From the NCBI GenBank assembly GCA_020725335.1, contig DYFF01000007.1:62001-126000 (forward strand): DNA of 64,000 bases, in the 5' to 3' direction. The position numbers were made by a program, and so were the translations under genes. Of this stretch, positions 1,247 through 45,101 are shown piece after piece. Each line of letters begins with the position of its first letter. The first letter of the stretch is position 1. The DNA comes from Thermodesulfovibrio sp. Lineage in GTDB: Bacteria; Nitrospirota; Thermodesulfovibrionia; Thermodesulfovibrionales; Thermodesulfovibrionaceae. Below the pieces are notes generated by a model. The model saw only the letters and a program-made list of their open reading frames with translations. It was not told the DNA's origin and ran no database searches.

Positions 1247-2125
1247 TTATTTTGTGGAGTCACCAGTTTTATTACCTCCGATTAAAGCCTGACTTAACAT
1301 TTCCTGCAAAATCTTTTCATTTATTTCTACTTTATGTTTTTTCTTCAAATCTTCAATATAACTATTAAACCAGTCTTGCTGTTTTTTTGCTTTTAATTGT
1401 TCTATAAGTTGCTGTTTAATCTGTTCAAATTCAATAGGTGTGCCTTTAACGTCAGTAACTTTAAAAATGTAAAGCCCGTCTTTACGATTTACAGGCATGC
1501 TAACCTGTCCTTTTTTTAAACTAAAGGCTAAGTTTTCAATTTGGGATTCAAGCTGTCCTTTTTTAAAAAATCCCATGTCCCCACCACTTGCCTTTGTTTT
1601 ATCGTCCTTTGATAGTTCTTTTGCTATTTTTGCAAAATCTTCTCCTTTATCAACTCTTTCATATACTTTTTTTGCATCATCTTCGCTTTTTACAACAATT
1701 TGGCTAAGTCTAACCTCAGTTGGTTTGATAAATTGGTCTTTATTTTTTTCATAGTAATCCTTTGCATCTTTTTCCGTTACCTGCTGAATATTTTTTAGTT
1801 CCTGTTCAAGTAGCATATTGATGAGAGTTATTTTTTTGAATTCCTCCAATCTTCTTTTGAACTCTTCAGATTTAGCAAGTTCTTTCTTTTTTGCTTCTTC
1901 ATAGAGAACTTCTCTTTTTATTAGTTCATCCTTCAGTCTGTTAATGCCTTCAGGAGATGCAAGAAATGCTTTAGTTTGGGGTGGTAAAGTTTTAAGGTCT
2001 TCCTGCAAATCTTTTTTTGTAAGTGTTGAAGAACCTGCTTTTAGTATTACTTCATCTTTGCTCTGACTACAGGCAAAAATAAGTGTGATGGTGAATAGGA
2101 AAATAAAAAATTTGATGAATTTCAT
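1247..2125 (-). CDS. SurA/PrsA-like parvulin peptidyl-prolyl isomerase lipoprotein
   Basis: 292-residue predicted lipoprotein. The N-terminus has a hydrophobic signal with lipobox LIFAC, so Cys19 would be lipidated. A SurA_N-like helical region (about 25-130, LTKKDLQEDLKTLPPQ, INRLKDELIKREVLYEEAKK) precedes one PpiC rotamase domain (about 135-235, PTEVRLSQIVVKSEDDA, SGGDMGFFKKGQL, AFSLKKGQVS). Family knowledge: such proteins assist folding or delivery of exported and outer-membrane proteins in the periplasm. Start chosen at ATG 2125 because AGGAG lies just upstream on the minus strand. It appears monocistronic. PrsA-like versus SurA-like cannot be decided by eye; the single PpiC domain and lipobox resemble PrsA/PpiD types. 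Confidence 0.9.
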   Translation of the reverse strand: MKFIKFFIFLFTITLIFACSQSKDEVILKAGSSTLTKKDLQEDLKTLPPQTKAFLASPEGINRLKDELIKREVLYEEAKKKELAKSEEFKRRLEEFKKITLINMLLEQELKNIQQVTEKDAKDYYEKNKDQFIKPTEVRLSQIVVKSEDDAKKVYERVDKGEDFAKIAKELSKDDKTKASGGDMGFFKKGQLESQIENLAFSLKKGQVSMPVNRKDGLYIFKVTDVKGTPIEFEQIKQQLIEQLKAKKQQDWFNSYIEDLKKKHKVEINEKILQEMLSQALIGGNKTGDSTK

Positions 2126-2227
2126 TTAATATACTCCTTTCAATATAATTTTTCCTTTAATTTAACATTTAGGTAAGTATTTAGGCAAATTTAATTGAAG
2201 CTCTAAGCTCTGGTAAGGAGGTTAATA

Positions 2228-2243
2228 GGGGGCATTTGCCCCC
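2228..2243 (-). terminator. Hairpin after the small rhodanese gene
   Basis: GGGGGCA-TT-TGCCCCC, a 7-bp GC-rich hairpin starting 4 bases after the rhodanese stop codon on the minus strand. The tail on that strand is only moderately T-rich (TATTAACC), so it may be a weak intrinsic terminator or an mRNA 3'-end stabiliser. Confidence 0.55.
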
Positions 2244-2247
2244 AGAT

Positions 2248-2718
2248 TTATTCTTTTACAAACTCTGTAGCTAATCTTCCAACTTCTCTTGCAAACTCTG
2301 CTATGCCACCTTTGAATTGGAAAGCATTGGAGAACCCAATTGCTCTTAGGGCAATTGTCGCAGCAGCAGCTCTGTCACCAGTATGGCAGAGAACAGCTAT
2401 TTTTTTGTCCTTTGGAAGCTTGGCAAGATTTTCAGGTTTAAAAAGTTCATGCATAGGGATTATAAGTGAACCTTTCCAGACAGGAGCTATAAGTTTAGTT
2501 TCAGCAGGTGTTCTAATATCAAGAATCACGAAATCCTCTTTCTTCTTGATCATTTCAAGAATATCCTTAGTAGCTATTTGACATGGTCTTAGTGTAAGAA
2601 CTTCTGGTGTCATTTGAGAAAACATAGCATCAAATTTCTTTGCCATTTCTGCATCATATGCAAATGCTGAGGTCACAAATATAAATGAAGAGATTAAAAA
2701 TGAAATAAAAAGTTTCAT
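2248..2718 (-). CDS. Exported single-domain rhodanese
   Basis: 156-residue single rhodanese domain with a signal peptide (MKLFISFLISSFIFVTSAFA, cleavage expected near residue 20), so it should act in the periplasm. The catalytic cysteine is Cys111 in the loop CHTGDRA; the CH2A-like motif DIRTPAE (about 67-73) precedes it. Rhodaneses carry sulfane sulfur as a persulfide and transfer it from donors such as thiosulfate or polysulfide to an acceptor. The upstream in-frame ATG at 2790 was rejected: AGGAGG sits 8 bases before ATG 2718 and the signal peptide starts there. It is divergent from the three-domain rhodanese at 2895, with a shared control region. The physiological sulfur donor is unknown. 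Confidence 0.88.
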   Translation of the reverse strand: MKLFISFLISSFIFVTSAFAYDAEMAKKFDAMFSQMTPEVLTLRPCQIATKDILEMIKKKEDFVILDIRTPAETKLIAPVWKGSLIIPMHELFKPENLAKLPKDKKIAVLCHTGDRAAAATIALRAIGFSNAFQFKGGIAEFAREVGRLATEFVKE

Positions 2719-2770
2719 TTTAACATCCTCCTGCATAGAATATTTTCTGCAAAGCAGAATACTATATAGG

Positions 2771-2807
2771 AGTATATAAGATAATATCACCTTTCGTCAA
2801 GACGAAA
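2771..2807 (-). promoter_or_regulatory. Promoter of small rhodanese gene with overlapping palindrome
   Basis: On the minus strand, TTGACG (2800-2795) and TATACT (2776-2771) are separated by 18 bp. The -35 lies inside the dyad TTTCGTC-AA-GACGAAA (2792-2807, 7-bp arms), a plausible operator. The resulting leader carries a further hairpin, TTCTGC-AAA-GCAGAA (2745-2759). Confidence 0.55.
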
Positions 2808-2843
2808 TTATTATATATTTAGGGGCTAATGGGTATATACCTA

Positions 2844-2872
2844 TTGACAAAATCTATTAATAAGGGTACAAT
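2844..2872 (+). promoter_or_regulatory. Sigma-70-type promoter for the three-domain rhodanese
   Basis: Perfect -35 TTGACA (2844-2849) and -10 TACAAT (2867-2872) with 17-bp spacing. Transcription would start near 2879, followed by GGAGGTG and ATG 2895. This looks like one of the strongest promoters in the window. Confidence 0.75.
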
Positions 2873-2894
2873 TATAGAAAAAAGGAGGTGCTTT

Positions 2895-4250
2895 ATGAGT
2901 AAAAAGCGAAAAGGCTTAGCTTTAATTGTGTTTATTTCGATTTTAGCCCTTGCTCTTGTAGCCTCTCAGGGTATATCTCAACAAAAGCCTATCATAGCTA
3001 AAGGTTGTTCTCTTCCAGGTTGTCATACTGCTAAACAAGGAGAGTTATGGGGAAATGTTAAGACTGTATCTGGAAAGGCTGAAATGATTCAAATTGACAC
3101 AGGTGCTCTGTGGACAGTTAAGTTTGACGATAAGACCAAAGTTAAAAACTGGAATCAACCTCTTAACAAATTACCAAAAGAAAAAGAGATTTCTATTAAC
3201 TATGTTGAGAAGAACGGAGAATTTTATGCAACATTTATCAATGTAAAGCCTCCGGTTGCTGTTGATCCAGCTAAGGTAGTTAAAGTGGCTGAAATGAAGA
3301 AAATTTGGGATGAAAAGAAGGCACTCATTATTGACTGTAGACCAGCTGGAAGATACAACGAAGGGCACATACCTGGTTCAATTCACATATGGTTTGCAGA
3401 ATTTGACAAACATATTGATAAACTTCCACAGGATAAAAATCAACTTATAGTCTACTACTGTCAGGGACCTACTTGAGCTCTCACACCTTCATCTGCTCGT
3501 AGAGCAGAAGCACTTGGTTACACCAATGTAAAGCAGTTTGTTGATGGTCTTCCTGAATGGAAAAAACAGGGATATCCAGTAGCATCAACAGTTAAGTATT
3601 TACAGGAGCTTATTAGCAAAGACATACCTCATGTTTTAGTTGATGTAAGACCAAAAGATCAAGCAGAAAAGGAACATATCAAAGGCGCTGTTAATATACC
3701 CCTTGATGAACTTGCTAAAGCACAGAAACTTTTCCCAAAGCAGAAAAATGCACCAATAATAATTTATTGTACAAAAGATAATCTTTCTCTTAAAGCCTTT
3801 GATACTATTAGAAAATGGGGATATACTAATACTTCCTATCTCGTGGGTGGAATAGAATCATGGAAAAAAGCTGGTGGAGAAGTTCTTTCTGGACAACTTC
3901 AGAAGAAAATTGTTTATGTGCCAAAGCCCAAACCTGGAACAATTGGGGTGGAGGAATTCAAGAAAATTACTGGAAAGAAACTTCCACCAAACGTGATTAT
4001 TCTTGATGTAAGAGACCCTGAGGAAACGCAGATGGGAGTAATTAAGGGTTCTAAAAACATACCAGTAAATGAGCTTAAGGACAGACTCAATGAACTTCCA
4101 AAGGATAAAGAAATAGTTGTTCATTGTGCTACTGGAATGAGAGCAGAAATGGCTTATAATATTCTTAAAGAAGCCGGCTATAACGTAAAATTCCTTGATG
4201 CGAGCATCCAAATTAAAAAAGGCGGGAAATATACAATAACAGAGAATTAA
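2895..4250 (+). CDS. Exported three-domain rhodanese with in-frame UGA (candidate selenoprotein)
   Basis: Read through TGA 3474-3476 this gene encodes 451 residues; without readthrough it stops after residue 193. A signal/anchor segment (about 7-28) is followed by CSLPGCH (Cys38, Cys43, His44), a CX4CH motif that could bind haem c, and a beta-rich region to about 120. Rhodanese domain 1 (about 130-230) has Cys189 in YYCQGPT directly before UGA codon 194, giving CX4U if the UGA is selenocysteine. Domain 2 (about 235-330) has Cys292 (IIYCTKDN) and domain 3 (about 345-435) has Cys411 (VVHCATGMRAE). No other stop occurs in this frame to 4250, and domain-like protein sequence resumes directly after the UGA. 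Start ATG 2895 follows GGAGGTG; the earlier ATG 2829 lies upstream of the -35 box. Alternatives are a nonsense mutation or a base-call error. Confidence 0.72.
3492..3508 (+). promoter_or_regulatory. SECIS-like hairpin downstream of the in-frame UGA
   Basis: TCTGCTC-GTA-GAGCAGA forms a perfect 7-bp stem with loop GTA. Its loop starts 22 nt after the UGA at 3474-3476. A short hairpin inside the coding region, just downstream of the UGA, with a G at the start of the apical loop, is what bacterial SelB-dependent recoding signals look like. Functional recoding is inferred, not shown. Confidence 0.6.
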
Positions 4251-4257
4251 ATTCTAT

Positions 4258-4279
4258 AAGGGGGCTTTATGCCCCCTTT
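4258..4279 (+). terminator. Intrinsic terminator after the three-domain rhodanese
   Basis: AAGGGGGC-TTTAT-GCCCCCTT, an 8-bp stem starting 7 bases after the stop codon and followed by TTCTCTGTT. It separates the rhodanese transcript from the cytochrome gene, whose -10 box lies only 7 bases downstream. Confidence 0.75.
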
Positions 4280-4285
4280 CTCTGT

Positions 4286-4291
4286 TATAAT
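4286..4291 (+). promoter_or_regulatory. TATAAT box abutting the multiheme cytochrome start
   Basis: A consensus -10 TATAAT lies 5 bases before ATG 4297 and no ribosome binding site is present between them. Transcription from it would begin at or near the A of the ATG, suggesting a leaderless mRNA. No convincing -35 is seen; that position falls in the preceding terminator. Confidence 0.45.
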
Positions 4292-4296
4292 TTTTA

Positions 4297-6195
4297 ATGC
4301 CCTTCAAACTTGGCAAAATTAGTGACCTTGCAACACCTCTTACTATATTAATCTTTTCCATCCAGTTCTTTTTGGTATTAGGATACTTTGGTTACGGATA
4401 CTATATGGATTCTTCTGAAAGTTGTATAAATTGCCACGGCTCAAAGGAGAAGATGAATGAACTTGGCTATCCCCAATTTTACATTACCCTTGATGAAGTT
4501 AGAAAGGCTACAGGTCATAAAACAGTTCAGTGTAGAGACTGTCACTTGGGTAATGGTAGGACTTCTGATAAGGACAAGGCTCACAAAGGAATGTTAAAGG
4601 CTATTTTTGTAGATGAAAATGCTGAGCCAGTGGAGAGAAATAAAGTTTACAGCAAAGAAGACATAGAGTTAAACAGAATAAGACCGAGTGGGGAAAATTC
4701 TCTTTTTGAACTTCTTCCTAAGCAAAGAGAAAATGAGGGATTTTATTTACACACTCAAGTGAGAAATATACTTTGGCACGACAGAGACCCTTATACTTTT
4801 AACTTTGACCCTAAAATATCTGAGAAGACCTGTGGTAAAAGAGGGTGCCATTCTGAAGAGTTAAAACAGTTCAGAAGCACAATAATGGGAATTAACTATC
4901 GTCAAAGAACTATGAGAACTTGGCTTGAGCCATATGGACCTCATAATTGCGGACCTTCTTTTGCTGATTTGCCACCAGAAGAGATACTTAAGAGTGCTGG
5001 TTTCGATTTTACAAATACTGAAAAAATAAGAAAAGAGATAAATATACCTTTTACAAATCAGCAGGCAATTACAAAACAAAGACTCTGTAATGTATGCCAT
5101 GCAAGTTGTCTTGACTGTCATTATGCACCAAACAAAGAAAAGGGTACACACGCATTCATAAAAGTTCCAGATTCATACAGTTGCATGGGAAGAGGTAGAG
5201 GAAATTCAGTTTGTCACACAGGTTCTGGGCATTCAAGAAGGGGAGAAACATATATTGGAAAGTTTTATTCAATTCCTCAGGGAAGAAAGCCTGATATTCA
5301 CTTTACAAAGGGAATTCAATGTGTAGAATGCCATCCAACAGGAAAAAAAGGCATGGGAGATATGCAAAGGAAAGCAACATGTGGAGATTGCCATGTTGAA
5401 ATAGAGAAAGCTCATGCAAATTCAATTCATAAAAATCTTACCTGTGCAGCATGTCATGTTACAGAGGCAAGCGGATATCAGATTACCATCTGGGGTAAAG
5501 GATATATTGGAGAGAATCCAAATCCTTTTAAGAAATACTCCCTCTATTATGGAATTCAAAAACCTCTCATATTAATGAAGGATCAGAAAGGCATTTGGTT
5601 CCCTGTAAAAATTTTTCCTCATAGTGTAGGAAATTTTCAGAGAGACATACCACCGTCAGGATTAAAATTCAGATGGCTTAATGGAGAGACAAGAGATATG
5701 TATGCTATCTTGGGTACTTTTGATGGACTTCCTTCAAGCAATAAACATCTCCTATGGCTTCAGATTGAAGAGGTTGCCCATCCTTTTGGAAAAGTAAGAG
5801 GTTGTAAAAGTTGCCACAGTAGAAGACAAGTTTCCGTATCTACATGGAAGTATGAAGACATACAGGGTGCAGAACCATTTAAAGGTGGGTATAAAATAGT
5901 GGCTGATGAAAAGAGACTTCAGTTAAAAGACTTCTGGCACACTGAGATTAAGGTGCAGCAAGGATTTGAGATTTCTGATTTTGCTTCTTGGATTTATCTG
6001 ACTGATAAATGGACTGTTGAAGGTGATTTCAGTATAAAGGTTGATACAAAAAAATATAAAAAGTATGAGAAGCTTTATCGGGAGAATCTTGAAAGAATCA
6101 AGAAGCTTAAAAATAAACATAAGGATTCTCCTGAGTTATTGAAAAAAATAAGAGGTATTATCATCCATAATCCTGATCAAAAAATAAGTGGCTAA
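4297..6195 (+). CDS. Membrane-anchored multiheme cytochrome c
   Basis: 632 residues. One N-terminal membrane segment (about 12-36) anchors a large periplasmic domain. Eight canonical CXXCH haem sites are visible: CINCH, CRDCH, CNVCH, CLDCH, CVECH, CGDCH, CAACH, CKSCH. In addition there is a CX4CH (CGKRGCH) and a possible CX9CH (CMGRGRGNSVCH), so eight to ten haems are likely. It should move electrons between the quinone pool or cyt b complex and a periplasmic redox partner. I do not recognise a named enzyme family. It could be a reductase or a pure electron carrier. It lies convergent to the transporter at 6196 with no gap and close to the Rieske/cytochrome b operon, which has no cytochrome c1 or f of its own. 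The start is supported by the membrane anchor; the mRNA may be leaderless. Confidence 0.85.
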   Translation: MPFKLGKISDLATPLTILIFSIQFFLVLGYFGYGYYMDSSESCINCHGSKEKMNELGYPQFYITLDEVRKATGHKTVQCRDCHLGNGRTSDKDKAHKGMLKAIFVDENAEPVERNKVYSKEDIELNRIRPSGENSLFELLPKQRENEGFYLHTQVRNILWHDRDPYTFNFDPKISEKTCGKRGCHSEELKQFRSTIMGINYRQRTMRTWLEPYGPHNCGPSFADLPPEEILKSAGFDFTNTEKIRKEINIPFTNQQAITKQRLCNVCHASCLDCHYAPNKEKGTHAFIKVPDSYSCMGRGRGNSVCHTGSGHSRRGETYIGKFYSIPQGRKPDIHFTKGIQCVECHPTGKKGMGDMQRKATCGDCHVEIEKAHANSIHKNLTCAACHVTEASGYQITIWGKGYIGENPNPFKKYSLYYGIQKPLILMKDQKGIWFPVKIFPHSVGNFQRDIPPSGLKFRWLNGETRDMYAILGTFDGLPSSNKHLLWLQIEEVAHPFGKVRGCKSCHSRRQVSVSTWKYEDIQGAEPFKGGYKIVADEKRLQLKDFWHTEIKVQQGFEISDFASWIYLTDKWTVEGDFSIKVDTKKYKKYEKLYRENLERIKKLKNKHKDSPELLKKIRGIIIHNPDQKISG

Positions 6196-7143
6196 TTATT
6201 CTTCCACACATATCTGTCTTTTTGAGACTGCATGAATTGTTTTAAGCGTTACAATGCCTATTATAGTAGTGGTAATTGCCAAGGCAATTAATGTTAGGAG
6301 TTTATAAAATGCTAAACCAGTCATTTGATATCTCATAGCAATAGCTATGGTAATTGCATCAAGAGGGAAGGTATATGCCCACCAAGAGATATAAAATTTG
6401 AGATTGATAAATTTTTTTATCAGAGCAAATAGAACTATACATAAAAATAGAGCAAAATAAAAAAGTAAGTTACCCAAAGTGTCTATGGAACCAATAATTT
6501 TTGTGTAAGATATGAATCCAATTGCAGGTGGGGCAATAAGAATGAAAAAAGTTGGATAAAGTCTATCAGGCAAGGGGTTGTGAAATATAAATCTATAGAA
6601 GACGATTGTAAACAGGCATATCCAAAATATGATTCCAACGCTAAAGAAAAACCAAGATAAATCAACTGAGTAATTAATTCCCTGTATTGGTATTATTATT
6701 GTTCCTACTACAGGAATAAACCATGCAGGATTAATCATTTCAATCTTAAACTCTTTGTTTATCCAATAAATTAAAATTCTTACAAGGAATATAAAGTGTA
6801 GAATTGTGCCACAAAACCACATGAAAAATGATATTGATTGATTTATCGAGTCATAAGCAATGGAAAGCAATAAAAGAGATATCGATATTGTCGGAAAGAA
6901 ACTTGATTTAATAGGATGATGGAATTCTTCTTTTACTTGACTTGAGTATTTAATAATTTTTATTAAGTATAAAATTACAAAAAGCCAAAATATTACACTT
7001 GCAACATAGGTAAGTCCAACTCCTATTAACTTTAATGTTTCTCCTAAAAATGATGTCCTCATGTAAGCGATTGCAAGACCTGTTAAACCCATAATTACAG
7101 CAAAAAATGAAATCGGGAAATTTTTAATCCTGCTGTTTTCCAC
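6196..7143 (-). CDS. TDT-family (TehA/SLAC1-like) anion or dicarboxylate transporter
   Basis: 315 residues with about ten hydrophobic membrane helices. Motifs FPISFFAVIMGLTG, NPAWFIPVVGT, PLPDRLYPTFFILIAPPA and WWAYTFPLDA match the tellurite-resistance/C4-dicarboxylate transporter family that includes TehA, Mae1, the Ssu1 sulfite pump and plant SLAC1 channels. The substrate cannot be read from sequence. In a sulfur-respiring context with a Rieske/cytochrome b operon just upstream on the same strand, sulfite or another small anion is an attractive but unproven guess. A CCTCC (AGGAGG on the coding strand) lies just upstream of ATG 7143. It may be cotranscribed with the cytochrome b genes 51 bases upstream. 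Confidence 0.82.
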   Translation of the reverse strand: MENSRIKNFPISFFAVIMGLTGLAIAYMRTSFLGETLKLIGVGLTYVASVIFWLFVILYLIKIIKYSSQVKEEFHHPIKSSFFPTISISLLLLSIAYDSINQSISFFMWFCGTILHFIFLVRILIYWINKEFKIEMINPAWFIPVVGTIIIPIQGINYSVDLSWFFFSVGIIFWICLFTIVFYRFIFHNPLPDRLYPTFFILIAPPAIGFISYTKIIGSIDTLGNLLFYFALFLCIVLFALIKKFINLKFYISWWAYTFPLDAITIAIAMRYQMTGLAFYKLLTLIALAITTTIIGIVTLKTIHAVSKRQICVEE

Positions 7144-7194
7144 ATACCCCTCCTTTTTTCATTTTTTATGATTTTTTTATACCTCCTATGGCTA

Positions 7195-7554
7195 TTAAGA
7201 GATAGCTTCAATAATGGTAGCAATTAGAAATATTAAAAGAAATGTGAAGGCTATCAAAGCTGTAAATTTCCAGCCTATTTTTTTATCAATCCATGGAACT
7301 AAAATTAGAAAGGATACTATGCTTAATGGAACTAAAACTCCACCAATAAAAACTGTATCGGCAGAGAAATACCTTAATAACCAGAAAAGCCAGAGATAAT
7401 ACCACTCTGGTCTTGGCTGATAGGCAACAAGTAAATCAATTTCTCTACCAATGAGAGGTGGGAAAATAAAAGTTAGAATTAGTATCAACTCAAAAGTCAG
7501 AATAGCAAAAAATAAAATCTCAATCAAATAATCTGGATAAAATTTCTTTTTCAT
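7195..7554 (-). CDS. Cytochrome b subunit IV-like protein (C-terminal half of cyt b)
   Basis: 119 residues with three predicted membrane helices. It carries the PEWYYLWLFWLLRYF stretch, containing the PEWY motif of the quinol-oxidation site in cytochrome bc complexes. The protein corresponds to subunit IV of cytochrome b6f, that is, the C-terminal helices of mitochondrial-type cytochrome b. With the b6-like protein encoded immediately upstream (4-base overlap) it completes the quinol-oxidising membrane core. It is third in the operon Rieske - b6 - subunit IV. At 119 residues it is shorter than the roughly 160 of cyanobacterial subunit IV. Confidence 0.9.
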   Translation of the reverse strand: MKKKFYPDYLIEILFFAILTFELILILTFIFPPLIGREIDLLVAYQPRPEWYYLWLFWLLRYFSADTVFIGGVLVPLSIVSFLILVPWIDKKIGWKFTALIAFTFLLIFLIATIIEAIS

Positions 7555-8195
7555 AGAGGTTTCGATATCCCAAGTTTTTTAATCATGTGGAAATGTGCCC
7601 ATAGTAGAAGAATGATAATACTTGGAAACCACAATACATGAAAACTGTAAAATCTTGAAAGCGTAACCCCAGATACTTCATAGTTACCTCTTATAATTAG
7701 CAGTATGGTTTCTCCTACAAAAGGTATACTACCTGCTATGTTTGTTCCAACTACTGTAGCCCAATATGCCTTTTGATCCCAAGGAAGTAGATATCCTGTA
7801 AAACCCTCAAGCATTATTATTAAGAAGACTAAAACACCTACAACCCAATTAAGCTCTCTTGGTGGTCGATAACTTTTAGTTACAAAAACCCTGATTGAAT
7901 GAAAAATTATGCTCACAATTAATACATTAGCAGACCATTTATGTATACCCCTTATCAGTTTTCCTAAGGGTACTTCTTCTTGGATTCTCAATATGCTTTG
8001 ATATGCTTCTTTTTCAGAAGGTATATAATGCAATGATAGAAACAAACCTGATATGAAGCAAAAAAGAAAAGCTGAGAAAGCTATTCCACCAAAACAGTAA
8101 AAGTAACTAATACCTTCGGGAATATCTCTATCAAAAATTCCTCTATGAACAGTTTTAAGTCTAAACCTGTCAAGAAACCAATCAATAATATTCAT
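7551..8195 (-). CDS. Cytochrome b6-like dihaem cytochrome b
   Basis: 214 residues, four transmembrane helices. Haem-b ligands are visible as a HX13H pair (GIHKWSANVLIVSIIFH) and a HX14H pair ending AHFH in the fourth helix, the b6f-like spacing. The Qo-region stretch GFTGYLLPWDQKAYWA is conserved. It transfers quinol electrons across the membrane between the two b haems. It overlaps both neighbours by 4 bases (Rieske upstream, subunit IV downstream), so translation is probably coupled. No cytochrome c1, f or other c-type subunit is in the operon; the multiheme protein at 4297 is a candidate partner by proximity only. Confidence 0.93.
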   Translation of the reverse strand: MNIIDWFLDRFRLKTVHRGIFDRDIPEGISYFYCFGGIAFSAFLFCFISGLFLSLHYIPSEKEAYQSILRIQEEVPLGKLIRGIHKWSANVLIVSIIFHSIRVFVTKSYRPPRELNWVVGVLVFLIIMLEGFTGYLLPWDQKAYWATVVGTNIAGSIPFVGETILLIIRGNYEVSGVTLSRFYSFHVLWFPSIIILLLWAHFHMIKKLGISKPL

Positions 8196-8656
8196 ATAAT
8201 TAATCCTACATATATCTTATCATTTTCTATTTTAACAGGTAATCTTTGAAGATTTTCTTTCGGTGGTCCAGTAATTACTCGTCCTTCTATATCATATCTA
8301 CCACCATGACAGGGGCATATAAACTCATTATTATATCTATTAAAATTTACGAAACAGCCAAGATGAGTGCATACAGGAGATAAAGCTATAAGGGAATTAT
8401 CATTCCTGTTAACAAGAAAAATCTTAAAATATTTTTTCTCATCAATTTTTATATCAACCTTTTTTAATCCCTCCTTTGGATATTTATCTTTAGGGATTTC
8501 AAAAAATTTGAAATCCCTTCGTTTAGGGTTTTTGGGTTTGAGAATTGTTAACCATATAAATGGAAGGATGAGGGAAATAACTAAAAAAAAAGATTTAATA
8601 ACTTTTTTTAAAAAAACCCTCCTATTAATTTTTTCTAATTGTTTGTTAATTGACAT
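8192..8656 (-). CDS. Rieske iron-sulfur protein of a cytochrome bc/b6f-type complex
   Basis: 154 residues. The N-terminus carries NRRVFLKK then one hydrophobic helix, typical of a Tat-exported, membrane-anchored Rieske protein. The [2Fe-2S] ligands are Cys96-His98 in CTHLGC and Cys114/His117 in CPCHGG; the two additional cysteines (101 and 116) would form the usual disulfide. It accepts one electron from quinol and passes it to a c-type acceptor in the periplasm. It is the first gene of the leftward Rieske - b6 - subunit IV operon and divergent from the PhsA/PsrA-like gene at 8763. The tat genes needed for its export lie at 17464-18585. Confidence 0.93.
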   Translation of the reverse strand: MSINKQLEKINRRVFLKKVIKSFFLVISLILPFIWLTILKPKNPKRRDFKFFEIPKDKYPKEGLKKVDIKIDEKKYFKIFLVNRNDNSLIALSPVCTHLGCFVNFNRYNNEFICPCHGGRYDIEGRVITGPPKENLQRLPVKIENDKIYVGLII

Positions 8657-8696
8657 ACTTTAAAAGGATACCCCCTAATCCTATTTTAAAAATATA

Positions 8697-8725
8697 TTGA
8701 CAAAAAATTTTTTTTTATGTAGTAT
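8697..8725 (+). promoter_or_regulatory. Promoter of the PsrABC/PhsABC-like operon
   Basis: -35 TTGACA (8697-8702) and -10 TAGTAT (8720-8725) spaced by 17 bp. The predicted leader of about 30 nt carries the purine-rich binding site GGGGGTGAGGG just before ATG 8763. Confidence 0.6.
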
Positions 8726-8762
8726 TTAACTAATAGTATAACAAATATAAGGGGGTGAGGGT

Positions 8763-10952
8763 ATGAGTATTACCCGAAGAGATTTTCTGAAAATTGCAGC
8801 GGTTACAGGCGGCGCTGTGGCAGCAAGCACCCCTGTTGTAAAATCGGTTTTAGCTCTTGGTAAAAAACCTGTTTCATTACCGCAATATGTACCAACAACT
8901 TGTGAAATGTGTTTTTGGCGTTGTGGTGCTATCGCAAAGGTTTTAGATGGAAAGGTTGTAAAGCTGGATGGGAATCCAATTCATCCGAACTCTCGTGGGA
9001 AATTATGTGCAAGAGGACATGGAGGAATAGGGCTTCTTTATGACCCTGACAGACTAAAAACTCCACTAATTAACACAGGTGCGAGAGGGGAGGCAAAATT
9101 TAAAAAAGCCTCATGGGATGAAGCCTTAGGATTTGTAGCTGATAAAATGCAGAAAATCAAGGAAAAATACGGACCTGAATCAGTAGCATTACTTACTCAT
9201 GGAACCATATCAGCTTATTTTTTGCACCTTCTTCAGGCATATGGCTCCCCAAATTTTGCAATGCCTTCTTTTGCACTGTGTCGTGGTGCAAGAGGTGTTG
9301 CTTTTGAGGTTACTTTTGGTGAAGATGTGGGCAATCCAGAAAGGCTTGATTTACAAAATAGTAAGGTAATTGTTCTTATAGGAAGTCATCTTGGTGAGAA
9401 TGCTCACAATTCTCAATGTCAAGAGTTTGCTGAAGCTGTTGGAAAAGGTGCTACAGTTATTGTTCTTGACCCAAGATTTTCAACTGCTGCAGGTAAGGCA
9501 CAATACTGGTTACCTATAAAGCCTGCCACTGACCTTGCACTTTTACTTGCATGGATAAATGTGATAATCAACGAAGGACTTTATGATAAAGAATATGTTG
9601 CAAAGTATACTACTGGTTTCAATGAAGTAGCTAAGGCTGTAAAGGAATATACTCCTGAGTGGGCTGAAAAAGAGACAGATATTCCAGCAAGTCTTATTGT
9701 TGAGACCGCAAGGGTAATGGGTAAAAATAAACCTTCAGTATTGATCCATCCAGGAAGACACACTGCCTGGTATTCTGACAATGTGCAGAGACAGCGTGCA
9801 GTTGCAATTCTTACTGCAATCCTTGGAGCTTATGGAAGACCAGGTGGAGTATATCTCAATCCCAAGAAGAAACTTGAACCAGTCTTTCTATCAGAGAAAG
9901 ACTATCCTGATCATAAACAAGAATTAAATAAAGGCAAGTATCCATTTGCAGGTGAAGAAGGCATTACCCATGAAATTGTAAGAGCGACTCTCACAGACGA
10001 GCCTTATCCTATAAAAGCATGGTTTACTACTGGAACAAACATTATGAAAGCAATGCCAAACCAGAGAGCTACACTTAATGCTGTTCAAAAACTCGATCTT
10101 CTGGTAGCAGTAGACATGATGCCATATGATGGTGTGATGCTTGCTGATGTAGTACTTCCTGAGTGTACCTATCTTGAGCGTCATGATGATTTTTTCACCG
10201 TAAAAGAGAGAAGCTTTGGTATATCAATTCGTCAACCTGTTGTGCAACCCATGTATGATACAAAACCAGGATGGTGGATTGCTAAAGAACTTGGCAAACG
10301 GCTCGGACTTGAAGAATATTTCCCATGGAATACCTTTGAGGACTTTTTAAAAGCAAAAGCTCAGATATGGGGAATTGATTACGCTGAGCTTGCCAAAAAC
10401 GGATATATTGATTTTCCAGAGAGTGCAAAACCTTACATTTCATCAGGAGAGGATTTCAAATTTAAAACGCCCTCAGGCAAGATAGAGCTTTACAGTAAAG
10501 AACTTAAAGAACACGGTTTTGATGCTGTACCAAAATATACAAAACATGCACAACCTTCTGAAGGATGGTTTAGACTCATATATGGAAGAGCCCCAGTTCA
10601 TACATTCTCAAGAACAACAAATAATCCCTCTCTTTGGGAACTTATGGAAGAAAATGTAGCTTGGATAAATTCAAAAATTGCAAAAAGAATGGGACTCAAA
10701 AATAATGAATATATTGTTTTAGTTAATCAGGATGGTGTAAAGAGTAATAAAGTTAGAGCAAAAGTCACTGAGAGAATAAGGCCAGACTGTATTTATATTG
10801 TTCATGGCTTCGGTTCAACATCAAAGCTTCTAAAAAAAGCTTATTTAAGGGGCGCTGATGATCAGCAGTTAATAACGAGATATGTAATTGACCCCATTGG
10901 TGGAACTGTGGGTATGAGAGTGAACTTTGTTAAGATTGCCAAGGAGGTCTAA
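8763..10952 (+). CDS. Molybdopterin oxidoreductase, thiosulfate/polysulfide reductase type, catalytic subunit
   Basis: 729 residues with a Tat signal (TRRDFLK then a hydrophobic stretch), so the folded Mo enzyme is exported. The [4Fe-4S] site has Cys47, Cys50, Cys54 and Cys82 (CEMCFWRC, LCARG). The likely molybdenum ligand is Cys173 (FALCRGARG), as in the PhsA/PsrA branch; it is not selenocysteine. The C-terminal MGD-binding region runs from about 595. It heads an operon with a four-cluster Fe-S subunit and an NrfD-like anchor, the PsrABC/PhsABC plan. Thiosulfate or polysulfide are the likely substrates, but tetrathionate, arsenate or a reverse (oxidising) role cannot be excluded by sequence reading. 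Confidence 0.9.
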   Translation: MSITRRDFLKIAAVTGGAVAASTPVVKSVLALGKKPVSLPQYVPTTCEMCFWRCGAIAKVLDGKVVKLDGNPIHPNSRGKLCARGHGGIGLLYDPDRLKTPLINTGARGEAKFKKASWDEALGFVADKMQKIKEKYGPESVALLTHGTISAYFLHLLQAYGSPNFAMPSFALCRGARGVAFEVTFGEDVGNPERLDLQNSKVIVLIGSHLGENAHNSQCQEFAEAVGKGATVIVLDPRFSTAAGKAQYWLPIKPATDLALLLAWINVIINEGLYDKEYVAKYTTGFNEVAKAVKEYTPEWAEKETDIPASLIVETARVMGKNKPSVLIHPGRHTAWYSDNVQRQRAVAILTAILGAYGRPGGVYLNPKKKLEPVFLSEKDYPDHKQELNKGKYPFAGEEGITHEIVRATLTDEPYPIKAWFTTGTNIMKAMPNQRATLNAVQKLDLLVAVDMMPYDGVMLADVVLPECTYLERHDDFFTVKERSFGISIRQPVVQPMYDTKPGWWIAKELGKRLGLEEYFPWNTFEDFLKAKAQIWGIDYAELAKNGYIDFPESAKPYISSGEDFKFKTPSGKIELYSKELKEHGFDAVPKYTKHAQPSEGWFRLIYGRAPVHTFSRTTNNPSLWELMEENVAWINSKIAKRMGLKNNEYIVLVNQDGVKSNKVRAKVTERIRPDCIYIVHGFGSTSKLLKKAYLRGADDQQLITRYVIDPIGGTVGMRVNFVKIAKEV

Positions 10953-10954
10953 AA

Positions 10955-11512
10955 ATGCCCAAATATGTAATGGTAATAGATGTTGAAAAATGCATTGGAT
11001 GCATGGCTTGTGTAATAGCGTGTAAGAAGGAAAATAATGTTCCAGAAGAGCATTTTAGAACCCGAGTAGTAGAGGAAGTAAGAGGTGAATTTCCCAATCT
11101 CAGGATGGAGTTAAGAAGTGAACTTTGCAATCATTGTGAAAACGCACCTTGCATTGATGCCTGTCCAACAAGAGCATCCCATAGAGCAAAAGATGGAACA
11201 GTACAGATAGACAGTGTTAAATGCATTGGCTGTAAAGCCTGTATTTTAGCTTGTCCCTATGATGCAAGGTATTCCCATCCAAAGGGTTTTGCGGACAAAT
11301 GCACTTTTTGTGACCATAGACTTAAAGAGGGTAAAAAACCAGCCTGTGTTGAGACCTGTCTTGGAAAATCAAGAATATTTGGCGACCTTGAAGAAGCAAA
11401 TAGTGAAGTAGCAGAATTGCTAAGAAAACATGACTCATCTGTGAGGCTTGAATTTGCTGGAACAAGACCACGGGTTTTTTATATTAAAAAGAAATTTGCA
11501 GGAGGTCTATGA
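10955..11512 (+). CDS. PsrB/PhsB-like four-cluster ferredoxin subunit
   Basis: 185 residues with four [4Fe-4S] cysteine groups in order: CIGCMACVIAC, CNHCENAPCIDAC, CIGCKACILAC and CTFC...CVETC. It relays electrons between the NrfD-like membrane subunit and the exported molybdo-enzyme. It has no signal peptide of its own and is presumably exported with the Tat-tagged catalytic subunit, as known for this family. It starts 2 bases after the catalytic gene, with GGAGG overlapping that gene's end. Its stop overlaps the next start (TGATG), so coupling is likely. Confidence 0.93.
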   Translation: MPKYVMVIDVEKCIGCMACVIACKKENNVPEEHFRTRVVEEVRGEFPNLRMELRSELCNHCENAPCIDACPTRASHRAKDGTVQIDSVKCIGCKACILACPYDARYSHPKGFADKCTFCDHRLKEGKKPACVETCLGKSRIFGDLEEANSEVAELLRKHDSSVRLEFAGTRPRVFYIKKKFAGGL

Positions 11513-12498
11513 TGACTGAGATAACAATAACAGGCTTAAATGCTATAACTCATCCTTACTTAGAGGTTTGGGATTGGAGAATAGTAATATATCTTTTTCT
11601 TGGAGGACTATCTGCAGGAATGCTTGTCATGTGCTCAATAGCTAATTTAAGGATTACTAAACAACCCGTGGAGGAACTTGCTCAATGTGTTAGAGCACCA
11701 TTTATTGCTTTTATTATTCTTGCTATAGGTGCCTTATTTATAATTATTGACCTTGGAAAGCCTCAAAGCCTTCTCTGGGGTTATCTTACTTTTCAACCTT
11801 TGTCTCTTATGTCATGGGGTACCTGGGGAGTTCCAGCAGTTTTAGTTGCGAATGCACTTTATATTTTAGCAGTAATTCCTAAAGATCAGAGACATAAGCT
11901 TAAGTTTCCATTCCTCATAAAAATAGCAGAGAAATTAGCCCCTAAGATGAGACCGATAGCAAAATTAAATTTCGCTATGGGAATTTTTCTTGGAATTTAT
12001 ACAGGTGTGCTTTTAAGTTCCTTTGCTGCAATACCCCTTTGGAATAATGCAACTTTGCCTATACTGTTTTTGGTATCTGCTCTTTCCTCAGGAGCAGCTA
12101 TGATAGTTATAATTGCGAAGAAAAATGAAATAAAATTTTTGTTCACCAAAATAGATATTTGGCTTATTGTAGCAGAATTAGTAATTATACTTCTTTTTTT
12201 ATATGGATTGTATACCTCAACTGCTCCATATAAAAAAGCAATAGAGCCCTTTTTCTCTTTCACAAGTGAACAATTTATATTTGCTATAGCATTAATAGCT
12301 ATATTCTTACTTCTACCGCTGGCATTGAGAATTAAGTTAGGTGAATTGAAAGAATTTGAAGACGGATTTCATGGAGAGTTTACTAAGGCTCAGATTTTTA
12401 GAATGAATTTTGCAGCAGTGCTTGTTCTTACAGGAACTCTCATCCTTAGAGCAGCGATAGTTTATGCAGGACAGTTAACAAAGCTTTCACCATATTGA
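11512..12498 (+). CDS. NrfD/PsrC-like quinone-reactive membrane anchor
   Basis: About 328 residues, with eight to nine predicted membrane helices. The beginning (HPYLEVWDWRIVIYLFLGGLS) resembles the NrfD/PsrC family, which exchanges electrons with the quinone pool in complexes having a B-type Fe-S subunit. ATG 11512 was preferred to ATG 11509 because GGAGG (11501-11505) is then 6 bases away; the difference is one residue. It completes a three-subunit PsrABC/PhsABC-type complex. A promoter-like sequence sits across its 3' end and may serve the small gene that follows. Confidence 0.9.
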   Translation: MTEITITGLNAITHPYLEVWDWRIVIYLFLGGLSAGMLVMCSIANLRITKQPVEELAQCVRAPFIAFIILAIGALFIIIDLGKPQSLLWGYLTFQPLSLMSWGTWGVPAVLVANALYILAVIPKDQRHKLKFPFLIKIAEKLAPKMRPIAKLNFAMGIFLGIYTGVLLSSFAAIPLWNNATLPILFLVSALSSGAAMIVIIAKKNEIKFLFTKIDIWLIVAELVIILLFLYGLYTSTAPYKKAIEPFFSFTSEQFIFAIALIAIFLLLPLALRIKLGELKEFEDGFHGEFTKAQIFRMNFAAVLVLTGTLILRAAIVYAGQLTKLSPY

Positions 12499-22840: not shown

Positions 22841-23680
22841 ATGAAGAAGTTATTATTGTTAGTTTTAGCTGTATTTTGTATTTCAATCATGCCTCTCACA
22901 GCATTGTCAGCGGAATTAAAATTAGGATTACTTCCAAGGCTTACTGAAAAAGAAATGATCGAAGGATTTACACCTTTTGCCCAGTATCTCGAAAAAGAAT
23001 TAGGTGTTAAGGTAAAACTTATAGTGCCAAAAGATTTTGACACATGGACAAATGAAGCAAAGGCAGGCGCTTATGACATTGCTTACACTAATCCATATCT
23101 TTATGTAGTAGTTAAAAAGGCAGTAAAAGACGCTCAGCCTATTGCAATTGCATCAGAACCAGAAATCGGAACTAAACTCTATGGAACTATAATCGTGAAG
23201 AAAGATAGCCCAATAAAGTCAATAGCAGACCTCAAAGGAAAAACCATAGCAGCCACAGACCCAGGTTCAGCAGGAGCATACCTTGTTCAGATGTTAATGC
23301 TTCAGAAGGCAAAGCTTAAAAAAGAAGATGTAAAGATTATATTTGAAAAAAAGCGTGACCCAGTAGCAGAGGCTGTGCTTTCAGGAAAGGCTGATGCAGG
23401 ATTTATAAGAGATGATGATGTTGAAAAATTAAAAGTAGGTGGAGACAAGTTTAGAAGACTTGGAAAAAGCGAACCAATTCCAAACTGGGTTGTATTTATA
23501 GGGAAAAAAATGGATCCAGCTATGGCAACAAAGGTAAAGAATGCAGTTCTTAAATTAAAACCAGGAGACCTTCAGTCAGTTAAAGTGCTTGCACCAGCCA
23601 GAACTGACGGTTTTGTTCCTGCCACTGATAAAGATTTCAAAATTATGATTGATGCTGCTAAGGCAGCAGGTGCATATTAA
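22841..23680 (+). CDS. PhnD-like periplasmic solute-binding protein
   Basis: 279 residues with a signal peptide (about 1-24, ending ALSA). The fold matches PhnD-type binding proteins: LKLGLLPRLTEKEMIEGFTP at the start, AYDIAYTNPYLYVV, IKSIADLKGKTIAATDPGSAGAYL, and LSGKADAGFIRDDDVE. Family members bind phosphonate, phosphite, phosphate or other anions. No ABC permease or ATPase is encoded nearby; the next genes encode TauE/SafE-type permease halves instead. The protein may thus be a sensor or a scavenger for a sulfur-containing anion, which is inference. AGGAGG lies before ATG 22841. A second PhnD-like protein with two such domains (45064) sits beside a histidine kinase. Confidence 0.85.
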   Translation: MKKLLLLVLAVFCISIMPLTALSAELKLGLLPRLTEKEMIEGFTPFAQYLEKELGVKVKLIVPKDFDTWTNEAKAGAYDIAYTNPYLYVVVKKAVKDAQPIAIASEPEIGTKLYGTIIVKKDSPIKSIADLKGKTIAATDPGSAGAYLVQMLMLQKAKLKKEDVKIIFEKKRDPVAEAVLSGKADAGFIRDDDVEKLKVGGDKFRRLGKSEPIPNWVVFIGKKMDPAMATKVKNAVLKLKPGDLQSVKVLAPARTDGFVPATDKDFKIMIDAAKAAGAY

Positions 23681-23691
23681 TCGATAATGAA

Positions 23692-23716
23692 GAGGGTATG
23701 CTTAATGCATACCCTC
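23692..23716 (+). other. Intercistronic hairpin after the binding-protein gene
   Basis: GAGGGTATGC-TTAAT-GCATACCCTC, a perfect 10-bp stem 11 bases after the stop at 23680. It has no U-run, so it is more likely an mRNA-stabilising or partial read-through element than a full terminator. Such hairpins often raise binding-protein levels over those of the downstream membrane proteins. Confidence 0.65.
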
Positions 23717-23737
23717 ACATAAAAGGAGGAGTGGAAT

Positions 23738-24982
23738 ATGAATAAGAAATTTTTGGTTATTCTATTTGCGAGCATACTATATTTATTGACAATAACCCCA
23801 AGTATTACAATGGGACAACCTTCACAACCACAAGAGGCACAAAGTGACTCTGCTGGAAAATCTGAGGTTGCCATCCAGATTGACAAGAAAACATTAAATA
23901 ATGGCGGTAAAGTTATTGTTTCAGGTAAAGCTCCAGAAGGAAAGCCTGTCTACATAGAGGTTTGGACAGAAGAAAAGGTAAGAGCAGCAAGGCTTGATGC
24001 AGAAGTTGACAAAGAGACCGGCAAAAGACCCTATATCTTTTACATGACTGATGAGATGCCAGCCTTCTATAATCTTCTATTCCCCAAAGAATTCGCTGAT
24101 ACCTTAGAGGCAGAAAAGAAACTTGGAAGAAAATGGAGCGTTTCAGCTCTTCTGAGAAACACCGGTGCAACTGCGGTTTTTGAAGCACCTGCTCAGGCAA
24201 AGATTGATAGATATCAGACCACACTCTGGGCAAGCATTATCGGTTCAAGAGGAGAACTTCTTCCACCTATGGACAAGTCTGAAAACAAGCGAAGGGCAAT
24301 GCAGCTTGTGAAGGCAAAATTCAGAGATCTACCGGTGGTTTTTAAGGCAAATGTGGAGATAAATCCTGATGGAACCTTTAAAGCTCCCATTGAACTTCCC
24401 AGCAATGCGCCTCCAGGCAAATATTATGTGGTGGCAAAAGTTGATAAAGACACTAAAAGTGAGACAGTTTTTTTTGAAAACAATATAACCTTCCCGAGTG
24501 TCTATTTGGATAATGCAGGAAGAACAGTTAATTTATTCGTTCCTTTCTTGCTTACTGCAGCAGTAACGACTTTTGGCGTTTTGATGGGTGCAGGTGGTGG
24601 ATTTATTCTCAATCCATTACTTGTTATGCTTGGACTGCCTCATACAGTTGTAGCAGGAACAGTTATGCCAACTGTTCTTTTCTCTCAGGGTACAGGAATA
24701 TACAACTATTCAAGAATTAAGTTTATAAGCTGGAAATTAGGTATAACACTTGGTCTTGCTATGCTTGCAGGAGGTTTTATTGGTCCCAAACTCACCGAGC
24801 TTATTACTCTTGACCAATATAAATTTCTATTTGGATGGGTTCTAATAATACTTTCTGCACTGATGTTCTGGCAGACAACTCCAAAATACCTTGAAAGGAA
24901 CAAGAAAGAACAAGCAATTCTTAAAGAGTATCAGAGAAGAGCTCAGGAAGCAGCAAAGAAAAAGGAAGAAGGAGGTAAATAA
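23738..24982 (+). CDS. TauE/SafE-type permease half with large N-terminal exported domain
   Basis: 414 residues. A signal peptide (about 1-26) and a periplasmic region of about 230 residues with Ig-like beta features (IQIDKKTLNNGGKVIVSGKA, VFKANVEINPDGTFKAPIEL) precede about four membrane helices from residue 262. Those carry the half-repeat FGVLMGAGGGFILNPLLVMLG and GGFIGPKLTELI of the TauE/SafE (DUF81) family. The C-terminal tail is charged and cytoplasmic. The complementary half is encoded 2 bases downstream. TauE/SafE proteins export or import sulfite, sulfoacetate, taurine-related or other sulfur anions. The exported domain may bind the substrate or the PhnD-like protein; this is inference. 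Confidence 0.82.
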   Translation: MNKKFLVILFASILYLLTITPSITMGQPSQPQEAQSDSAGKSEVAIQIDKKTLNNGGKVIVSGKAPEGKPVYIEVWTEEKVRAARLDAEVDKETGKRPYIFYMTDEMPAFYNLLFPKEFADTLEAEKKLGRKWSVSALLRNTGATAVFEAPAQAKIDRYQTTLWASIIGSRGELLPPMDKSENKRRAMQLVKAKFRDLPVVFKANVEINPDGTFKAPIELPSNAPPGKYYVVAKVDKDTKSETVFFENNITFPSVYLDNAGRTVNLFVPFLLTAAVTTFGVLMGAGGGFILNPLLVMLGLPHTVVAGTVMPTVLFSQGTGIYNYSRIKFISWKLGITLGLAMLAGGFIGPKLTELITLDQYKFLFGWVLIILSALMFWQTTPKYLERNKKEQAILKEYQRRAQEAAKKKEEGGK

Positions 24983-24984
24983 AA

Positions 24985-25374
24985 ATGAAAGTAGAATTCT
25001 GGGGACAGGAATTTAAAGTTAATCTATTCATAGGAATACCAGGTGCCTTTCTCATAGCAATTGCATCTTCAATGTTTGGCTTTGGTGGAGGACCATTCAT
25101 GGTGCCACTCATGGCAGTGGGATTGAGACTTCCCATGTATGTTATTGTGGGAAGTTCTCTCCTTGCAATCTTCTTTAATACTCTTATGGGTTCCTTCAGA
25201 CACTATGGGTTTGGAAATTTTGACCTAATATTTTTCTTAATAATGTTTCCAGCTGCAATTCTTGGTGGATATATAGGACCTAAGATTGCTAAAAGACTGA
25301 ATCCTGTTATTGTAAAAAGAGTTGCCTGCGTTGGACTTCTGATACTGGCTTTTCAATTGCTTGGTGTATTCTAA
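24985..25374 (+). CDS. TauE/SafE-type permease, second half
   Basis: 129 residues with about four membrane helices and the second TauE/SafE half-repeat (ASSMFGFGGGPFMVPLMAVG, GGYIGPKIAKRLNPVIVKR). It is preceded by AGGAGG and begins 2 bases after the stop of the first half. Together the two products give the roughly eight helices of a normal full-length TauE/SafE protein, so they probably form a heteromeric permease. The reading frames differ and both genes have proper starts, so this looks like a true gene split rather than a sequencing error. Residues 1-15 are a soluble leader without signal-peptide character. Confidence 0.82.
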   Translation: MKVEFWGQEFKVNLFIGIPGAFLIAIASSMFGFGGGPFMVPLMAVGLRLPMYVIVGSSLLAIFFNTLMGSFRHYGFGNFDLIFFLIMFPAAILGGYIGPKIAKRLNPVIVKRVACVGLLILAFQLLGVF

Positions 25375-43499: not shown

Positions 43500-45101
43500 C
43501 TAACCCTCTTTGATAGGTAATTCTATTATAAATTCTGTTCCTTCACCAACCTTACTTTTTACATTAATTTTACCTTCATGGTCTTTTATAATTCTCTCTA
43601 CACAGGCAAGTCCAAGTCCTGAGCCAGTTGTTTTCGTAGTGAAAAAGGGTTCAAATATTTTACCCATAATTTCCATTGGTATTCCAGTCCCTGAATCTTT
43701 TATTATGATTTTTACCTTTCCATTAATTTTTTCAGTTTTTATTTTGATTGTTTCCCCCTCTTTTGTTGCATCAATTGCATTTACTAATAGATTAAGCACA
43801 GCTTGTTTTAGTTGATGTTGGTCGAAATAGAATTCAGGGATAGAAGCGTCAAAATCAATATTAAGAATCTTTTTTTCTTCTTCAATTTCTCTTTCAACGA
43901 GTTTTATGACATCTTTTAACGCATTATTTATATTTCCCTTTTCGTATTTAAGAGGAATAGGTCTTGCATAGGATAGAAAACTTGTTATTAGTTCATTTAA
44001 TCTCTCTGTCTCTCTGTCTATAATTGAGAGAAACTCTCTTAGAACTTCGCCCTGAAAATTTGCCTTCAAATAGGAAGTGGAAGCTTTTATTGCATTTAGG
44101 GGGTTTTTAATCTCGTGGGCAACTGTCATTGCCATTTCTGCCATAGCAGAGGATTTTTCAAGTCTAAGTTTTTCCTTTGTTGCTTTATCAAGCTCTTGGA
44201 GGGAGTTTTTCAGTTTTAATATCATCTCATTAAAAGTTTCAATGAGATAGCCTATTTCATCTCCACAGGAGATCTTATAGACCTCACAGTCTTTGCAGTC
44301 CATGTTGTAACACCTTCTACAATTTTCCTTAGCATCAATTATTAACCAACATCTTTCTTTACCATAGGCAGGACAGTCAGTTTTTTCGCATTTAAAGATA
44401 TCTTTACAAAGTATATTGGTTGGATTTTCGCATAATTCAAGTTTATCAGTTCCTATGTTTGCCATTTTGTTTTTAAGACTTTGAAGAGGCTTTATAAGAG
44501 TTTTTGAGAGCATGAAAGACAAGAAAACTGTGAGAATAAAGGAGAACGAACTAAGTATGTAAATATAATTTTTTAGATTTTTTGTTGATTCTTCAATGTA
44601 AACATCAACCTTGTTTTCAGAAATACCTGCTCTTAAAATTCCAAAATAGCTATCTCCTGAGACTACTGGTAAATTAATATGAAGTATTCTATCTTTGTCT
44701 GTTCTCTGCCATTTTGTATAATCTAAAGTTATATACTTACCCATTTGACTCTTATCATTGTGTCCAACAATCCTACCATTTTTATCAACAATCATTATAT
44801 ATTCCATACCTGGATTATTGATAGATAAAGAAATCTTCTCATCAATTGCTAAAGGATCAAAGAAAATCAGATTGTCTATAACATCCTTTGATAAATTTTC
44901 CAGGATTATTGAAATATTATTGTCTATTTGTTCTCTTAAGGAGTTTTTCTGATAATTAAGAATTAAAATATTAATGGAAAGCATTATCATTAGAAATACC
45001 AAAAGAAAAGAGAAGAAAATTTTACGTCCTATGCTAATTCTTTGAATGTTATTTATAATTTTTTTAATGACTGAGTTTTTTAAGTAGTGCCATATCTGCA
45101 T
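43500..45101 (-). CDS. Membrane histidine kinase with ten-cysteine insertion in the HAMP region
   Basis: 533 residues. Membrane helices at about 28-50 and 178-200 enclose a periplasmic domain of about 125 residues (YIMIVDKNGRIVGHN, cache-like). Between residues 224 and 279, in the HAMP region, ten cysteines occur (224, 232, 238, 243, 251, 261, 264, 269, 272, 279), including CRRCYNMDCKDC. HisKA follows with His329 in TVAHEIKNPLNAIK, then HATPase (NLLVNAIDAT, DSGTGIP, GSGLGLACVER). The cysteine block may bind metal, Fe-S or respond to redox or sulfur species. It overlaps the upstream lipoprotein gene by 38 bases and is 1 base before its regulator gene. Confidence 0.92.
   Translation of the reverse strand: MQIWHYLKNSVIKKIINNIQRISIGRKIFFSFLLVFLMIMLSINILILNYQKNSLREQIDNNISIILENLSKDVIDNLIFFDPLAIDEKISLSINNPGMEYIMIVDKNGRIVGHNDKSQMGKYITLDYTKWQRTDKDRILHINLPVVSGDSYFGILRAGISENKVDVYIEESTKNLKNYIYILSSFSFILTVFLSFMLSKTLIKPLQSLKNKMANIGTDKLELCENPTNILCKDIFKCEKTDCPAYGKERCWLIIDAKENCRRCYNMDCKDCEVYKISCGDEIGYLIETFNEMILKLKNSLQELDKATKEKLRLEKSSAMAEMAMTVAHEIKNPLNAIKASTSYLKANFQGEVLREFLSIIDRETERLNELITSFLSYARPIPLKYEKGNINNALKDVIKLVEREIEEEKKILNIDFDASIPEFYFDQHQLKQAVLNLLVNAIDATKEGETIKIKTEKINGKVKIIIKDSGTGIPMEIMGKIFEPFFTTKTTGSGLGLACVERIIKDHEGKINVKSKVGEGTEFIIELPIKEG

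Follow-up and report, generated by a model that had tools for sequence, protein, structure and literature searches.

A predicted selenocysteine-containing exported rhodanese with three rhodanese domains in Thermodesulfovibrio

To our knowledge, rhodanese selenoproteins have been listed for some twenty years without a function being attached to them. They have been catalogued in five forms (PMC13188914), of which form 1, the rhodanese-like selenoprotein, is characterized by a PF00581 domain and a UxxS motif and is represented by WP_010941598.1 (PMC13188914, Table 1). A rhodanese lipoprotein, ExtH, is encoded by the Geobacter ext cluster extHIJKLMNOPQS (PMC5877670, PMC6148476). The published selenoprotein of that cluster is, however, ExtKL and not ExtH. 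Sud, the periplasmic polysulfide-sulfide transferase, is a small single-domain protein not known to have selenocysteine (Sec) or a CxxCH motif.

Here we describe a gene (2895-4250) found in a 64-kb stretch of Thermodesulfovibrio DNA, hereafter called the window. Judged from its sequence, it very likely encodes an exported rhodanese that contains selenocysteine.

Gene, reading frame and protein layout

The read-through product comprises 451 residues including Sec194 and begins with the ATG at 2895, located just 3' of AAGGAGGTG (Table 1). The frame is interrupted by TGA 3474-3476 (codon 194) and ended by TAA 4248-4250, with no other stop codon present, and the 451-residue translation contains three Rhodanese stretches above the gathering score of PF00581 (Pfam, 192.9 bits, 1.3e-57). 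A sequence-only reading of this DNA had described a single frame crossing the TGA into three rhodanese domains, which ORF reading and Pfam bear out. It had also placed the UGA at codon 194, five residues past the likely catalytic Cys189 (YYCQGPT-U), which agrees with the translation, and was right in calling the active site CX4U, Cys189 being the catalytic cysteine of rhodanese 1 and Sec standing at +5 in a YCxGxT-U motif. In a six-frame scan, which required at least 60 codons on either side of the TGA and no better overlapping gene, this was the sole TGA read-through in the 64 kb. Fold comparison matched the protein mostly to rhodanese structures, and in the AlphaFold model the rhodanese domains are good and the N-terminus is unreliable (pLDDT 32-41).

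The conserved N-terminal CxxCH motif was absent from the earlier description. It has the form CX4CH in the window protein and CxxCH in most homologues, with Cys43-His44 kept in 78 of 80. A C-x2/4-CH motif of this kind would suit a c-type heme, making it a possible attachment site, putative on sequence grounds; no cytochrome domain was matched by Pfam at this motif of the window protein, where the N-terminal model is poor.

Table 1. Features of the predicted selenoprotein gene and its neighbours (window coordinates)
Feature	Position	Strand
Divergent single-domain rhodanese, kept within the genus	2248..2790	-
Ribosome-binding site AAGGAGGTG, read from the sequence	2882..2890	+
Predicted selenoprotein gene: signal peptide, CX4CH motif, beta-rich segment, three rhodanese domains	2895..4250	+
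CSLPGCH, residues 38-44, CX4CH; possible c-type heme site	3006..3026	+
Cys189 codon, catalytic Cys of rhodanese 1 (80/80 homologues)	3459..3461	+
TGA codon 194, predicted selenocysteine, +5 of Cys189	3474..3476	+
Putative bacterial SECIS hairpin, 7 bp, loop GUA	3492..3508	+
Cys292 codon, rhodanese 2 (Cys in only 11/80 homologues)	3768..3770	+
Cys411 codon, catalytic Cys of rhodanese 3 (Cys in 78/80)	4125..4127	+
Multiheme c-type cytochrome, next downstream gene, kept within the genus	4297..6195	+
TehA/SLAC1-like transporter, flanked by the multiheme cytochrome gene and those for cytochrome b and Rieske protein	6196-7143	-
Rieske protein and cytochrome b (ExtP-like, below cut-off), with a short C-terminal subunit of cytochrome b	7195..8656	-
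Molybdopterin oxidoreductase (PhsA-like, below cut-off), Fe-S subunit, NrfD/PsrC-type membrane subunit	8763..12498	+

Decoding of the in-frame UGA

Strong matches to the protein were detected in 49 of the 296 genomes of the phylum sample, and matches at E <= 1e-20 in 91 of the 141 genomes sampled from Geobacterales, close matches being found in Thermodesulfovibrio and its kin. In the tree set of 80 family members, Sec occupies the codon-194 column in 48 and Cys in 24, the two states that the sequence-only reading had led one to look for, and eight have neither. A TGA is present at the same site in 19 further copies (17, and two that are partial), so that one column is shared as TGA by 67 gene copies of Nitrospirota and Geobacterales from independent assemblies. 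Two genomes of the window's own genus (G008, G005) have TGT (Cys) at this column, and the tree requires 6-7 changes among the labels Sec, Cys and none. The catalytic Cys189 is invariant (80/80). It is kept also in the ExtH-like clade, where +5 is neither Cys nor Sec, which indicates that the residue at +5 is dispensable for some family members.

Some relatives deserve separate mention. Genome G297 harbours two sister copies, one with Sec and one with Cys (L064 and L099), possibly a selenium-responsive isozyme pair. A divergent Geobacterales branch (L153-L157; genomes G428, G437, G431, G432 and G441) has the active site FWCGGPT-U-PFS, and its alignment to the window protein begins only past the CxxCH part. 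In L170 (G217:C102:4200-6900), UGA occupies both the catalytic and the +5 positions (FYUGGYHUAFAP); a perfect hairpin follows the second UGA and selB is present in G217, but the frame is broken past rhodanese 1, and hence this copy may be an error of the metagenome-assembled genome (MAG) or a decaying gene.

The hairpin TCTGCTC-GTA-GAGCAGA starts 15 nt 3' of the UGA and its apical loop 22 nt 3' of it, exactly matching the perfect 7-bp stem with loop GTA that had been reported at 3492-3508. The published rules for bacterial SECIS elements concern loop size, the presence of G within the first two positions of the loop and a spacing of 16-37 nt (PMC13188914), and the hairpin agrees with them in all three respects, in keeping with the bacterial SECIS fit that had been proposed as a check. 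By itself, the window hairpin is unremarkable, its z being -0.31 under dinucleotide shuffling and -0.99 under synonymous-codon shuffling; since the folding energy of the window sequence alone is not significant, the case for it is a comparative one. When 36 distinct UGA sequences are compared, pairing holds in 98.1% of the cells of the six-pair stem and compensatory changes on both sides are seen at four pairs (15 cells), while none of 500 shuffles gave covariation as high, except in the count of pair types (3/500). All six core pairs are kept in 38 of 42 UGA genes versus none of four Cys genes (Fisher p 4e-4), and the mean energy z under synonymous shuffling is -2.2 for UGA genes versus +0.5 for Cys genes. 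As far as these alignments allow the putative element to be read, it is a hairpin that covaries among UGA genes and decays in Cys homologues.

Values of dN/dS are 0.030-0.055 upstream of the UGA and 0.033-0.060 downstream. The possibility that UGA 3474 reflects genuine termination or an error in sequencing, leaving either a pseudogene or a 193-residue protein followed by a remnant, draws on the use of UGA as the normal stop of 16 of the 51 window genes and on a window hairpin that alone does no better than chance. It is nevertheless very improbable, given an identical TGA column in independently assembled copies, a dN/dS of 0.03-0.06 beyond the UGA and a covarying hairpin.

The genome from which the window was taken (1.80 Mb, 99.9% complete) encodes all four components of the selenocysteine machinery whose presence had been named as a check, namely SelA, SelB (above the curated cut-off), tRNA-Sec with the anticodon UCA, and SelD. 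The selD frame has an in-frame TGA of its own in the expected N-terminal loop (AAGUASKIGPG), and is thus a second gene of this genome requiring Sec decoding. Moreover, selB was found in 62 of 65 TGA genomes (G115 being counted without inspection of its TGA position) versus 6 of 11 Cys-only genomes (Fisher p 0.001, with related genomes not independent). The three TGA genomes in which selB was not detected are drafts (G190 and G227, 95-96% complete; G131, 74%), and the five Cys-only genomes without selB include the two that belong to the window's genus. That UGA is translated as some other amino acid without selenium, be it by reassignment, a suppressor tRNA or near-cognate Trp read-through, is even less probable than termination: the Sec system of the genome is complete, the alternative residue in relatives is Cys and not Trp, and UGA terminates 16 other genes of the window. 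True termination, sequencing error and code reassignment were all rejected on the strength of the shared TGA column, the low downstream dN/dS and the role of UGA as a stop elsewhere. We consider the insertion of Sec at codon 194 nearly certain. SelB, recruited by the hairpin, would decode the UGA as selenocysteine, a step that is strongly supported.

Active site, gene neighbourhood and proposed function

In the active-site loop C-Q-G-P-T-U, Sec is the sixth residue, and its position, counting from the catalytic Cys, corresponds to Thr252 of bovine rhodanese, a backbone NH donor that helps to hold the persulfide on Cys247 (PMC3276061). A selenolate at +5 would be in a good position for attack on the Cys189 persulfide, setting sulfide free, or for taking the sulfur over itself, and the occurrence of Cys in place of Sec in relatives fits the expectation for a redox pair. 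The loading of a persulfide onto the catalytic Cys is general rhodanese chemistry; in the mature protein, sulfane sulfur from polysulfide or thiosulfate would be loaded in this way onto Cys189 of rhodanese 1. Sec194, lying in the same cradle, would then attack the persulfide, releasing sulfide and leaving a Cys-S-Se-Sec bond that a periplasmic donor might re-reduce, possibly via a heme on the N-terminal CxxCH, while rhodanese 3 (Cys411) probably hands sulfur onward. The resolution of the Cys189 persulfide by Sec194 is what we infer tentatively, holding it somewhat short of an even chance. As a whole, the protein would act as a periplasmic sulfane-sulfur carrier or reductase, and could serve the polysulfide/thiosulfate-reductase-like complex whose genes lie close by. 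The predicted signal peptide, the CxxCH motif and the thiosulfate/polysulfide-reductase-like neighbours make periplasmic sulfur transfer plausible, and a role in periplasmic sulfane-sulfur metabolism seems moderately probable.

Sec194 might alternatively serve as the sulfur carrier itself (Sec-Se-S-), passing its load to a partner or to rhodanese 3 without resolving any persulfide. The tandem arrangement of three domains, of which the first and third have Cys, would suit such a relay, as would the relative in G217, where UGA stands at the catalytic position as well as at +5. On the other hand, the retention of Cys189 throughout the tree set suggests that this residue remains the acceptor, and we regard the carrier role as unlikely.

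Slightly better placed, yet still rather doubtful, is the proposal that Sec is real and the protein acts mainly on periplasmic selenium or tellurium oxyanions, as proposed for the Geobacter ext cluster, and not on sulfane sulfur. The Geobacter relatives resemble ExtH of that cluster, in which the reduction of selenite and tellurite suffers when extI is lost (PMC5877670; PMC6148476), and an ExtP-like cytochrome b, a Rieske protein and a TehA-like transporter are encoded near the window gene. However, the ExtH-like clade lacks Cys or Sec at +5, the scores of the neighbours fall under the Ext cut-offs, and the ExtH orthology of L024-L027 is presumptive. Among the ten neighbours scanned (1250-12495), only sub-cut-off matches to ExtN, ExtO and ExtP were obtained; ExtI and ExtKL were not found among them, nor was a cluster of the extHIJKL type.

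In the genus, the gene is accompanied by a multiheme cytochrome, a cytochrome b/Rieske pair and a thiosulfate/polysulfide-reductase-like operon. The gene order is conserved in the genus only, the gene being solitary elsewhere; hence its link to the neighbouring reductase is weak, and the neighbourhood carries little weight as a guide to function. The TehA/SLAC1-like transporter has the same placement in several members of the genus. Farther along the window, phosphonate-type periplasmic binding proteins, PhnD-like by eye, are encoded at 22841-25374 and 45064-46710, with a pair of TSUP-type permeases and a two-component system close by.

Returning to the sulfane-sulfur role, the family offers a natural comparison, in which Sec and Cys versions of one enzyme have been swapped several times, one genome (G297) has both versions, and Sec stands where the persulfide is held. 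Because of these exchanges, the pair in G297 and the location of Sec at the persulfide site, the contribution of selenium to sulfur transfer is directly testable. It is conceivable, if rather less than an even prospect and more tentative than persulfide resolution in the window protein itself, that a widespread and unmodelled class of periplasmic CxxCH triple-rhodanese selenoproteins exists, in which a resolving Sec at +5 would make a heme-linked sulfane-sulfur reductase of a single protein, with at least one relative perhaps having Sec at both positions.

Comparison with known selenoproteins and rhodaneses

No NCBIfam model scored above its cut-off for the window protein or for the six relatives tested, and because the gene lacks a curated model, automatic annotation probably ends it at residue 193. 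With form 1 the protein shares the rhodanese domain and one predicted Sec, and the UxLS of many family members is compatible with UxxS, whereas the window protein itself reads UALT. Form 1 may include the family of the window protein, which has been set beside it by motif description only.

TsoB (NF045694), a rhodanese/DsbD fusion-like protein, has a U-x4-U spacing equal to that of C189-x4-U194, and its UxxxxU motif provides a precedent for Sec at +5. Residues 127-237 of the window protein match the rhodanese part of TsoB, but the score against the model (84.1 bits, cut-off 805 bits) shows that it is not a member; it has no DsbD part, has a catalytic Cys, and combines CxxCH with three rhodanese domains. 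NF041203 (rhodanese_LYCAU, form 3) is likewise a rhodanese in which Sec lies near the catalytic Cys. It differs in having a CxU spacing and a single domain, and the window protein, with its Cx4U motif, is not a member of this family either (94.9 bits, cut-off 115 bits).

ExtH is a rhodanese-family protein of ~49 kDa. The ExtH-like Geobacterales relatives have the same CxxCH and three-domain layout as the window protein at 42% identity, and one of them (L024) is encoded near cytochrome b and Rieske genes; their active site reads YCVGGCSSP, however, without Cys or Sec at +5. These relatives are putative, though probable, ExtH proteins, and the Geobacter ExtH-like proteins appear to be a branch of the window protein's family that has neither Sec nor Cys at this position. 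The resemblance to the Sud-type transferase lies in the rhodanese fold (1qxn against rhodanese 3, E 6e-4) and in the setting, Sud being associated with polysulfide reductase and the window gene lying near genes for a polysulfide/thiosulfate-reductase-like complex.

Among the papers searched, none joined Nitrospirota, rhodanese and selenocysteine. Rhodanese selenoproteins as such are already known, and the CxxCH triple-rhodanese selenoprotein predicted here is a variant of them that lies outside the curated NCBIfam models.
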